Source of the DNA: a virus
Length of the DNA: 27,128 nucleotides
Virus record (IMG/VR): IMGVR_UViG_3300046507_000058
Span: 1-27,128 of that record
Direction: 5' to 3' (one strand)
Shown: piece by piece, positions 700 to 3,528 of the stretch
Position numbering within the stretch: the first letter of the stretch is position 1
Layout of the letters: each line of letters begins with the position of its first letter
Made by a program: the position numbers and the translations under genes
The notes under the pieces: generated by a model
The model's database searches: none
Seen by the model: the letters and a program-made list of their open reading frames with translations, nothing else
What the model was told of the DNA's origin: nothing

Positions 700-1134
700 A
701 TGGAAACCGACGACACTATCATCGACGAGCAGGCTGACCGCTGGGTATGGTGGTGCCGCACGCGCCATTACTTCGCGCCGGCAGTGAAGTCGAACATCCT
801 CGCACGGCTGCAGCCGAAGCGTGGCCGCGCGTTCGACCCTGATGCATTCCTCGACCGGGAAATGCCGTTCTTCAATATGGCCGTGCATGCCCTGTGCGAG
901 CAATACCTGCACGAAATGGACGCGGCCTGTTTCCTCGCGGTGCACTGGTACGGCGCAAACATCAAGGCAGTCGCGAAAGAACAGCAATGCGCGCGCGGGA
1001 CGATTTATAATCGAGCCAGGCGGTTCGCTCGGCAGGCTCAGTCATTGTCAATCGTCATTCGCAAAGCTCACGAGTCTTTCACGTCGGAGAAGTGTTCAAA
1101 ATTAGTTGAGCAAAATACCGCTACCATAGATTGA
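700..1134 (+). CDS. Putative late-gene regulator, Q-antiterminator-like
   Basis: A 144-residue soluble protein with GGGGA upstream of the ATG. The N-terminal half is aromatic and basic (RWVWWCRTRHYF); the C-terminal half carries a likely helix-turn-helix around residues 88-113 (IKAVAKEQQCARGTIYNRARR). Phage Q-type late regulators and related small DNA-binding proteins have this size and often end with such an element. Position supports the idea: it is the last gene before a promoter, a long non-coding leader and a terminator, after which all packaging and structural genes begin, as in lambda. The assignment is by context and pattern; it could be another HTH regulator. Confidence 0.5.
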   Translation: METDDTIIDEQADRWVWWCRTRHYFAPAVKSNILARLQPKRGRAFDPDAFLDREMPFFNMAVHALCEQYLHEMDAACFLAVHWYGANIKAVAKEQQCARGTIYNRARRFARQAQSLSIVIRKAHESFTSEKCSKLVEQNTATID

Positions 1135-1140
1135 ACACTT
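1090..1140. repeat. Inverted repeat overlapping the late promoter
   Basis: AAGTGTTCAA at 1090-1099 and TTGAACACTT at 1131-1140 are perfect 10-base reverse complements, centres 41 bases apart (about four helical turns). The right arm contains the -35 box of the predicted promoter and the stop codon of the Q-like gene. This is what an operator or regulator-binding pair would look like. Binding by any protein is inferred. Confidence 0.6.
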
Positions 1141-1158
1141 GGCCCTAAAATCTATAGT
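1131..1158 (+). promoter_or_regulatory. Predicted sigma-70-type promoter for the late leader
   Basis: TTGAAC at 1131-1136 (four of six consensus -35 bases) and TATAGT at 1153-1158 (five of six -10 bases) are separated by 16 bases, an acceptable spacing. The expected start of transcription is near 1165. The downstream stretch TTAATAGATAGT is A/T-rich and could contain a -10-like pause element as at lambda pR'. It lies directly after the Q-like gene and before the terminator at 1561-1584. Confidence 0.6.
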
Positions 1159-1383
1159 TAATAGATAGTCTGCAAAGTTGCCTCTAAACCGCCGATAGTA
1201 CTTAGGCATCGCCCACCTCTGCGGCACAACGGGCGACTTTCACGCATGGTGATTGGGCCGAGTTGCAAAAGACATCGGGTAGCTGCGCAAGGGCGGAGGC
1301 CCAACCAGTCCGGTGGATCAGTCGCCAGTCGTGAGAGTGAATGCGAAAGCGTTACTGATGATGCCGGATCTCTCCAGTTGGCA

Positions 1384-1455
1384 CCAGCGCCGGCCACTCT
1401 CAACACATTGCGCAAGCGCGCTACTGGTAATGCCGGTTCGACTCCGGCTCGCTGG
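1384..1455 (+). ncRNA. tRNA-like element, non-canonical or degenerate
   Basis: CCAGCG (1384-1389) pairs with CGCTGG (1450-1455) over a 72-base span, the length of a tRNA, and the T-arm GCCGG-TTCGACT-CCGGC (1432-1448) sits one base from the 3' strand, as in a real tRNA. However, the D-arm and anticodon arm cannot be drawn in standard form and there is no encoded CCA. Best read as a tRNA pseudogene or tRNA mimic, not a working tRNA. Confidence 0.35.
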
Positions 1456-1475
1456 CCGAGGTTCGGTAAGGAAAA

Positions 1476-1492
1476 GCGGGTTCGACTCCCGC
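1476..1492 (+). ncRNA. Second perfect T-arm-like hairpin
   Basis: GCGGG (1476-1480), loop TTCGACT, CCCGC (1488-1492) matches the T-arm consensus exactly and has the same loop as the one 44 bases upstream. The bases after it run into a palindrome, GCACATGTGC (1491-1500). There is not enough room between the two arms for a full second tRNA, so this is a duplicated fragment or part of a larger structured RNA. Confidence 0.35.
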
Positions 1493-1560
1493 ACATGTGC
1501 CGGGGCAGGTATCAGGCTGTGTAGCCGATGGTTCGGCGGGCCACAAGCAGCACCACACAC

Positions 1561-1584
1561 AACCGCCTTCGGGCGGTTTTTTCG
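1561..1584 (+). terminator. Strong intrinsic terminator ahead of the late genes
   Basis: AACCGCC (1561-1567), UUCG tetraloop (1568-1571), GGCGGTT (1572-1578) and a run of six T (1577-1582) form a textbook terminator. It separates the leader from the packaging genes, so late expression would need read-through, consistent with a Q-like antiterminator. Confidence 0.85.
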
Positions 1585-2099: not shown

Positions 2100-3528
2100 G
2101 ATTCTTATCCCGGCGCACGGGTGGCAGCCTAGAAAGCACCAGCGCCGCATCTGGTCGTATCTGGAGAATGGCGGCCGGTACGCTTACCAGATTGCACACC
2201 GTCGCTGGGGTAAGGATGACGTAGCACTGCGCTGGACGTCGGTGGCGGCATTCCAGAAGGTCGGCAGCTACTGGCACCTGTTGCCGGAAGCAGCGCACGC
2301 TCGCAAGGCTATCTGGAGCGCGATTAACCCCCATACAGGTATGCGCCGTATCGATGAGGCATTTCCGCTTGCGTTGCGTAAGACGACGCGCGAGCAGGAA
2401 ATGTTCATTGAGTTCGTCAATGGCTCGACATGGCAGGTGGGCGGCAGTGACCGGTACAACACGCTGGTTGGCTCTTCACCGGCCGGTGTGATCTTCTCAG
2501 AATGGGCGTTGGCTAACCCGGCGGCATGGGCATATGTCCGTCCGATCCTGCTGGAAAACGGTGGATGGGCGACATTCATCACGACGCCCCGCGGTCACAA
2601 CCACGCAGAGAGGATGCTGAAAGCGGCTCGCAACATGCCTGGAGCTTTTGCCGATGTATCGACGGTCAACGAAACGGGCATTTTCACACCTGAGGCGCTT
2701 GAGCAGGAAAGGCAGTCGCTGATTGCTGAATACGGGCCTGACTTCGGCCAGTCGATATTCGATCAGGAATACATGTGCAGCTTCGAGGCAGCCGTTCTCG
2801 GGGCTTACTACACCGCCTGGATAGCGCAGGTACGTGCCGAGAAGCGCGTCACTGATGTCCCCGTAGACACGACGCTGCCGGTCCATTTCGCATTTGACAT
2901 CGGCCGCACGGATGACACGAGCATCTGGGCGTTTCAGGTGCCATGGAAGGCTGTTCATGTGTGCGGGTTCCATTCGAGCAACGGTCAGGACGTGGCGTTT
3001 TACCTTGACTACCTGTGGACGTACCTGAAAGAGCGTGGCGCGAAGCTCGGAAAGCTGTATCTGCCCCACGACGCGAAGGCCAAGACGCTCGCCAGCATGG
3101 GTAAGAGCGTTCAGGAGCAGTTCGTGGACGGCGTCGAGAAGGACGGCACGAAGTTCCCTGGAGTTGGTTGGGGGCATGTAGAGATCGTGCCTTCGCTGAG
3201 CGTTCAGGACGGGATTCAGGCGGTTCGTACCATGTTCCCGCGCGTGTGGTTCGACAAGTCGTGCGATGACGACAAGCAGGGCTTCAGCGGTCTAGATGCG
3301 CTGACGCAATATCGCCGTGAATACGACGAAGCGCACAAGGTATTCAGGGAAAAGCCGCTTCACGACTGGTGTTCCAACCCGGCTGACGCGTTCCGCATGC
3401 TGGCTGTCGCATACCAGGCAGAAAAGGTCGCAGCGCCTGCGCCGCCGCCGCCGAAGTACCCAACCGACATGACCATCGATCAATTGATCGCCCGACAGCG
3501 CTCCAAGCGCATCGCAGAGGAAGCCTGA
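2092..3528 (+). CDS. terL: Terminase large subunit (packaging ATPase/nuclease)
   Basis: A 478-residue protein with two expected domains. ATPase: a variant Walker A at residues 36-43 (HRRWGKDD, Lys41), Walker B at 132-138 (GVIFSEW, acidic Glu137), and a TTPRG coupling motif at 164-168. RNase H-like nuclease: Asp269 (FAFDIG), Asp327 (LPHDAKAK) and Asp432 (PADAFR) are candidate metal ligands. It drives ATP-dependent DNA translocation into the prohead and cuts concatemers. Length is normal for the family. It ends in a Pro-rich linker and basic tail. The start overlaps the small subunit by eight bases, indicating coupled translation. Confidence 0.93.
   Translation: MPEILIPAHGWQPRKHQRRIWSYLENGGRYAYQIAHRRWGKDDVALRWTSVAAFQKVGSYWHLLPEAAHARKAIWSAINPHTGMRRIDEAFPLALRKTTREQEMFIEFVNGSTWQVGGSDRYNTLVGSSPAGVIFSEWALANPAAWAYVRPILLENGGWATFITTPRGHNHAERMLKAARNMPGAFADVSTVNETGIFTPEALEQERQSLIAEYGPDFGQSIFDQEYMCSFEAAVLGAYYTAWIAQVRAEKRVTDVPVDTTLPVHFAFDIGRTDDTSIWAFQVPWKAVHVCGFHSSNGQDVAFYLDYLWTYLKERGAKLGKLYLPHDAKAKTLASMGKSVQEQFVDGVEKDGTKFPGVGWGHVEIVPSLSVQDGIQAVRTMFPRVWFDKSCDDDKQGFSGLDALTQYRREYDEAHKVFREKPLHDWCSNPADAFRMLAVAYQAEKVAAPAPPPPKYPTDMTIDQLIARQRSKRIAEEA

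Follow-up and report, generated by a model that had tools for sequence, protein, structure and literature searches.

What occupies the roughly 420 bases that separate a Q-like gene from the first packaging gene in virus record IMGVR_UViG_3300046507_000058 (positions 1 to 27,128; this whole stretch is referred to as the window)? A previous sequence-only reading placed three successive stem-closed units with tRNA-like pieces in 1165-1584. The motifs and stems that it quoted were all found where it had put them, among them GGCGACT 1232/AGTCGCC 1320, TGAGAGTG 1332/CACTCTCA 1395 and AATGC-GAAA-GCGTT at 1340-1353. Comparison with other phages, however, changed what they appear to build. We estimate at about 50% the probability that the window holds one divergent representative of a family of phage non-coding RNAs that has a fixed frame and exchangeable interiors and works as a structured RNA; this estimate is based on sequence analysis. 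Coordinates in the window refer to the plus strand, and other loci are designated by L numbers.

The first part of the frame is hairpin P1 (1236-1338), a helix of ~20 bp in which the outer pairs (1236-1244/1330-1338) and the inner pairs (1247-1256/1318-1327) are separated by a 2x2 internal loop and enclose a variable structured interior. An alignment of 14 sequences over window positions 1236-1339 was used to build a model, R1; its frame consensus is CTYTCACG-CA-TGGYGATTGG / CCAGTCGCCA-GY-CGTGAGAG. Both sides were changed in 9 of the 20 pairs, 95.3% of cells were paired and none of 500 shuffles was as good; the covariation score was 0.352 versus at most 0.106 when slid. The window forms 19 of the 20 modelled pairs, also held by L033 (100% identical) and L068 (98% identical). 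Its score against R1, 74 bits, is not independent since the window belongs to the training set. Further R1 copies were detected in L009 and L011 (two each), L015, L025, L058 and L075. The stem GGCGACT/AGTCGCC, proposed earlier as the closure of the first unit, is not conserved (L068 has no GGCGACT); the conserved pairing of 1318-1327 is with 1247-1256. Directly upstream of hairpin P1, a hairpin with the conserved loop GGAAAGAC and a variable complementary stem was seen in L079, L080, L070, L025 and L015.

The second part of the frame, U2 (1332-1402), is a branched domain closed by 1332-1339/1395-1402 and containing two hairpins, P2 (1340-1353) and P3 (1363-1394), the latter with stem GCCGG/CCGGC (1363-1367/1390-1394) abutting the closing stem. 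Canonical units of this type were mostly collected with a fixed 19-mer, GAATGCGCAGGCTGATGCG, which has matches in at least 120 IMG/VR stretches. In nearly all units examined, a variable stem precedes the 19-mer and the complementary strand follows a second conserved hairpin; the closing stems have a mean of 6.6 contiguous pairs, compared with 2.7 when partners are swapped. Among 100 distinct units, both-sided changes were observed in 19 of 24 pairs (270 cells; 0 of 500 shuffles), with a covariation score of 0.321 versus at most 0.129 when slid, and all nine closing-stem pairs were changed on both sides. Covariation, set beforehand as the key test, is thus strong in homologues for both hairpin P1 and U2. 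G.U cells outnumber A.C cells in hairpin P1 (41:5), in P2 and P3 together (17:3) and in the closing stem (30:18), which agrees with an RNA read from this strand. As to fold stability, also proposed as a test, the whole region is ordinary against shuffled controls (z −1.05), while the 103-nt hairpin P1 is unusual (z −3.79, 0 of 200 shuffles); U2 is mildly stable (z −2.06) and unit 3 (z −0.42) is not unusual.

The two parts share a strand. The strand that precedes GAATGC, designated a′ (1330-1339), is the 3′ side of hairpin P1 and the 5′ side of U2, with 1332-1338 used in both; the independently built models R1 and R2 (the latter for U2) overlap on a′ in L009, L011, L025, L078 and L080. Compensatory changes show a′ to have two conserved partners: the upstream strand s1 (1236-1244), giving hairpin P1, and the downstream strand s3 (1395-1402), giving the closing stem of U2 (8-9 bp). 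Units 1 and 2, described earlier as successive, are mutually exclusive foldings of a single element, because hairpin P1 and the second stem both use 1332-1338. In distant units, the 24 nt before GAATGC fold with their own upstream partner at −25.3 kcal/mol versus −19.5 kcal/mol with a swapped one. Forced folds of the two states were near-isoenergetic in 61 units (median −0.9 kcal/mol, with errors of several kcal/mol). An 8-mer common to all three strands was not found in the window, where the shared strand is 7 nt long, and the window's three-strand arrangement taken alone is reached by 49 of 3000 shuffles; the strong evidence for this arrangement is comparative and comes from the alignments.

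Canonical U2 domains show a layout resembling the D and T arms of tRNA: P3 abuts the closing stem, P2 follows three nucleotides on, and the near-invariant P2 and P3 loops, GGCUGA and AGAUCAGCA, can pair (GCUGA/UCAGC). Loop complementarity is kept with other sequences in L226 (GCTCA/TGAGC) and L165 (GGTGA/TCACC). Like a tRNA, such a domain has one 5-bp arm set directly against its closing stem and another three nucleotides further on, its loops can pair with each other, and T-arms lie nearby. Unlike a tRNA, its closing stem measures 8-9 bp and varies in sequence, the 9-nt ‘T’ loop has no TTCRA, an anticodon arm is missing and CCA is not consistent; ARAGORN finds no tRNA there. A CCA end on the closing stem is in slight excess only (7-8 of 93 units at the best offsets versus ~3 expected) and does not define the family. 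In the window, an 8-bp closing stem complementary to a′ is present, P3 abuts it and the 3′ 18 nt of U2 are identical to canonical units; by this comparison the second unit of the window is a divergent U2 member.

Several observations weigh against this assignment or against the family frame as we describe it. The window's U2 is a weak R2 match (15.7 bits; E 1.5e-4 in 551 b, 0.12 in 436 kb). Its P2, AATGC-GAAA-GCGTT, replaces the canonical GCGCA-GGCTGA-TGCGC and its P3 loop has 22 nt where the canonical one has 9, so that complementary P2/P3 loops are absent in the window; in the window member, some of the function may be lost or changed. For the canonical units, P2 and the kissing helix vary little because most of these units were gathered by the fixed 19-mer, and the both-sided changes in the kissing helix (2 of 5 pairs) come mostly from single sequences. 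An ungapped 18-nt hairpin P1 helix was detected in only 49% of canonical units (12% with swapped partners); hairpin P1 in that form is therefore no universal feature; it may lie elsewhere in some units or be absent from them. Finally, the shuffle tests are inflated by relatedness of the sequences. In further searches, the exact hairpin P1 pattern occurred in 0 of 399 Burkholderiales genomes, an R2 search of 150 returned one strong and five weak matches, and a BLAST search of the window region against phages gave terminator matches only.

The comparison of loci shows a frame that stays constant while its interior is replaced wholesale, at times by tRNA, hammerhead-like or 16S rRNA-like RNA. Scans with terminase and Q-like proteins gave 43 loci, and homologues of the structured region follow a Q-like gene and precede the late genes. 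Locus L033 is 99.5% identical to window positions 1130-1344 and identity resumes at 1559; in between, the interior of unit 2 is entirely different and unit 3 is missing. In L034 and L039, the frame alone is retained. Elsewhere, tRNA models match inside L193 and L212, and the interior of the L058 copy of hairpin P1 is tRNA-Leu-like, by sequence reading only. The U2 interior at L106:3701-3779 (minus strand) contains CTGATGAG-GCC-ATAA-GGC-CGAAAC, a hammerhead-like core with stems I and III, for which Rfam HH9 gave 28.2 bits (E 0.007), below the cut-off. A pattern scan of the window for the hammerhead core CUGANGA / GAAA found none. The interiors in Klebsiella phage SBP (L246:3032-3078) and L220 (near 4600) hold a 40-nt copy, 82.5% identical, of positions 243-282 (helix 11) of E. 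coli 16S rRNA, which scored 33.4 bits with the Rfam SSU model. The rrn operon was matched by 11 of 128 query regions, mostly through tRNA and all in sense, compared with one among reversed controls. Protein coding of the region was considered and found unsupported: interior lengths range from 27 to 163 nt, without a frame.

The family is present in phages P1, HK620, PAJU2, PY54, N4-like phages, Jedunavirus, Taipeivirus and Klebsiella and Pseudomonas phages, and R2 confirmed it in 12 of 14 phage records searched. BLAST with one unit gave a match in 966 of 5,426 complete E. coli genomes, although some of the matches may cover a flanking module and not the whole unit. Genomic contexts are diverse. 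The unit lies between qut and the terminator tQ in HK620 and between a Q-like gene and lysis genes in PAJU2; by pattern scan, the same frame directly precedes a gene resembling that of a terminase small subunit (L069), follows a promoter-like sequence of its own (L073, L080) and is found in arrays (L075). In phage P1 (L254), the unit at 2498-2602 adjoins tRNA-Asn and tRNA-Thr and is antisense to plp/upl. These two annotated ORFs run antisense across the RNA unit (L254:2155-2724) and may not be genes; a second, weaker unit (2759-2885) lies just past the first. Phage SBP has a promoter (2665-2693), the element and a terminator (3163-3179), while the genes on either side run on the opposite strand; judged from this layout, its unit resembles an RNA gene standing on its own in antisense to the adjoining genes. 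Phage 6947 is arranged like SBP, with promoter, element and terminator opposite to the neighbours, and has a tRNA-Ile in addition.

Other units stand among tRNA genes or in apparently empty DNA. The unit of Pseudomonas phage ZC03 (L256) lies in a cluster of ten tRNAs, where a hammerhead-like sequence (L256:1620-1690; 21.2 bits, below the cut-off) was also seen between tRNA genes. Units of KP6 and IME11 are located in 2-3-kb gaps without annotated genes. These gaps (L255:1479-3565 in IME11, L257:1300-4327 in KP6) are packed with long-range perfect helices and T-arms, and IME11 has unannotated tRNA-like genes near 3085-3260. A module of ~200 nt just upstream of hairpin P1 is 78-85% identical in the unrelated HK620, IME11 and KP6 (L245:2740-2960, L255:2255-2445, L257:2280-2450). 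Overall, 12 units have tRNAs within 1 kb (5 expected), 11 of them on the same strand. At L067:430-560, between two RNA units, a tRNA-like gene (43.7 bits) carrying a long insertion was noticed.

Given these contexts, could the element act in cis, as a late-leader switch in which folding into hairpin P1 or into U2 determines whether transcription stops at 1561-1578 or continues into the packaging genes, by attenuation or put-like antitermination? A put element is a defined sequence of two hairpins that modifies RNA polymerase. In the window, L033, L034 and HK620, the unit does have a promoter before it and a terminator after it, the two helices are mutually exclusive and near-isoenergetic, and terminators cluster 23-30 nt downstream of s3, with 12 units having one within 30 nt. 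Yet s3 and the terminator stem do not overlap, and the switch would therefore not melt the terminator; a terminator is found within 250 nt of only 23 of 95 units; and many units are antisense to neighbours or reside in tRNA clusters without a downstream gene. Of the antitermination leader suggested by the sequence-only reading, the structured RNA in late-leader position is borne out; antitermination itself fails for the family taken together, since units of other phages sit antisense to their neighbours or within tRNA clusters. Late leaders may use antitermination in cis, but it cannot account for those units; as an account of the element, the switch seems unlikely to us.

Remnants of tRNA genes in a tRNA insertion hot spot would be another explanation, and unit 3 (1404-1495) speaks for it. 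The two perfect TTCGACT T-arms reported there, starting at 1432 and 1476, are present (1432-1448, 1476-1492); they are the only perfect ones in 27 kb, and at least one perfect T-arm arose in 3 of 20,000 shuffles. Intact genes for tRNA-Asn (L041) and tRNA-Trp (L061) occupy the corresponding place in relatives, and tRNAs are enriched near units. Unit 3 is absent from L033 and no homologue of it was found. Decay, however, does not produce compensatory changes in 9 of 20 and 19 of 24 pairs or a 20-nt P2 that is near-invariant across unrelated phages. T-arms within U2 interiors are enriched but rare (3 of 95); the family is therefore not simply tRNA debris. Decayed tRNA genes are an improbable source of the element, for the idea fits unit 3 only: the tRNA-like pieces of this unit are real and may result from decay, whereas units 1 and 2 show conservation through compensatory changes. 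That the region contains no standard tRNA, as claimed earlier, was upheld: neither ARAGORN nor the Rfam tRNA model accepted a cloverleaf in the window, and the best sub-threshold candidate was a tRNA-Sec (18.8 bits, E 0.43).

We hold it equally doubtful that the repeats s1, a′ and s3 mark exchangeable modules of a DNA-level cassette or a recombination or packaging site, with an incidental RNA fold. The exchange of interiors in a standing frame (L033 versus the window), the further module common to HK620, IME11 and KP6 and the fact that s1 and s3 are near direct repeats would suit a cassette; the excess of G.U over A.C on one strand, the promoter-terminator units, the presence of functional RNAs in sense orientation as interiors and the lack of a tie to any one packaging gene would not. 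An RNA decoy, which would use its tRNA-like fold and its interiors to pass for host RNAs (tRNA, 16S helix 11) and so engage anticodon nucleases, ribosomal proteins or enzymes of RNA processing, is improbable too, for despite the tRNA-like topology of U2 with its P2/P3 loop pairing and the sense orientation of the tRNA- and 16S-like interiors, most interiors resemble no known RNA and the few rrn-operon matches are mostly to tRNA.

The reading that we favour, a frame RNA with exchangeable interiors, would most likely function as a processed, bistable structured RNA. Polymerase starting at the late-promoter-like sequence TTGAAC-16-TATAGT (1131-1158) would make an RNA of ~400 nt ending at the intrinsic terminator AACCGCC-TTCG-GGCGGTT with its T tract (1561-1578), unless antiterminated. 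Hairpin P1 would form first, co-transcriptionally; the emerging s3 could then displace s1 from a′ and close U2, and the RNA would switch between a compact tRNA-like fold and a long hairpin that RNase III might cut. The resulting structured RNA would present its interiors, whose binding partners might be translation, tRNA-processing or defence factors; here it would be freed from the late transcript, and in other phages it would come from a gene of its own. A broader and more tentative proposal is that of a general phage RNA platform: a bistable frame with a′ choosing its partner, modules (tRNA, ribozyme, rRNA mimic) being exchanged, spread between unrelated phages, kilobase-long arrays beside tRNA genes (the 2-3-kb gaps, IME11, KP6), and an a′ sequence specific to each unit within a genome and hence no cross-pairing. 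With such a family, the long ‘empty’ stretches next to phage tRNA genes would be accounted for, as would ORFs annotated over them, such as plp/upl of phage P1; given its presence in well-studied phages (P1, HK620), its function can be tested at the bench.

The RNA family is apparently uncatalogued. Rfam 15 (GOLLD, ROOL, C4, IsrK, 6S and others) gave nothing above the gathering cut-off in the window and only tRNAs in units of other loci; weak matches in the window (Plastid-ycf2, tRNA-Sec, Tymo tRNA-like) were discarded as chance. The core sequence was not found printed in the open literature searched, and a paper outside it could already describe the family. We know of no shared-strand (a′) arrangement in GOLLD or ROOL. 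The nearest kind is nonetheless this class of structured phage and prophage RNAs, which often neighbour tRNA islands and have kissing loops and a variable linker, in some cases with a tRNA in it (PMC12286853); they differ from the present family in being large and multi-stem (GOLLD often >800 nt) and in sequence. Hammerhead ribozymes are known from phage intergenic regions (PaP3, Bcep176; PMC3088659); here the core was seen in one unit (L106) and in the ZC03 tRNA cluster, the family frame itself having none. Small RNAs of lambdoid prophage late regions (Pas, STnc100, IsrK, AsxR; PMC13192938) are alike as small late-region RNAs, but their Rfam models match none of the units scanned. The small RNAs of P22 (sncRNAs; PMC13397905) were rejected as evidence of expression because P22 has no R2 match, and integron attC sites (conserved GTTRRRY/RYYYAAC ends) because the unit ends do not fit.

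The setting in the window follows the layout of a Q-dependent late leader, with the late promoter directly after the Q-like gene and then the terminator, an order conserved in relatives. It resembles the lambdoid late leader (PR′, qut, tR′; lambda 6S RNA) in position, promoter type and, in relatives, early terminator; it differs in that RNA units of this kind are also found at places remote from any late promoter. The Q-like gene (700-1134, 144 aa) has homologues in L033-L042, and in about ten phages a relative of the gene stands ahead of this promoter. Its product matched no Pfam or PHROG entry and no Q family, and the ‘Q’ label therefore rests on position and promoter. The window promoter is identical in L033 and conserved downstream of Q-like gene homologues, and the terminator at 1561-1578 is likewise identical in L033. 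The window does not have the strong terminator that most relatives carry right after this promoter. Across L033-L066, the promoter TTGAACACTTnnnCnTARAAT recurs after Q-like genes, with a terminator next in most relatives.
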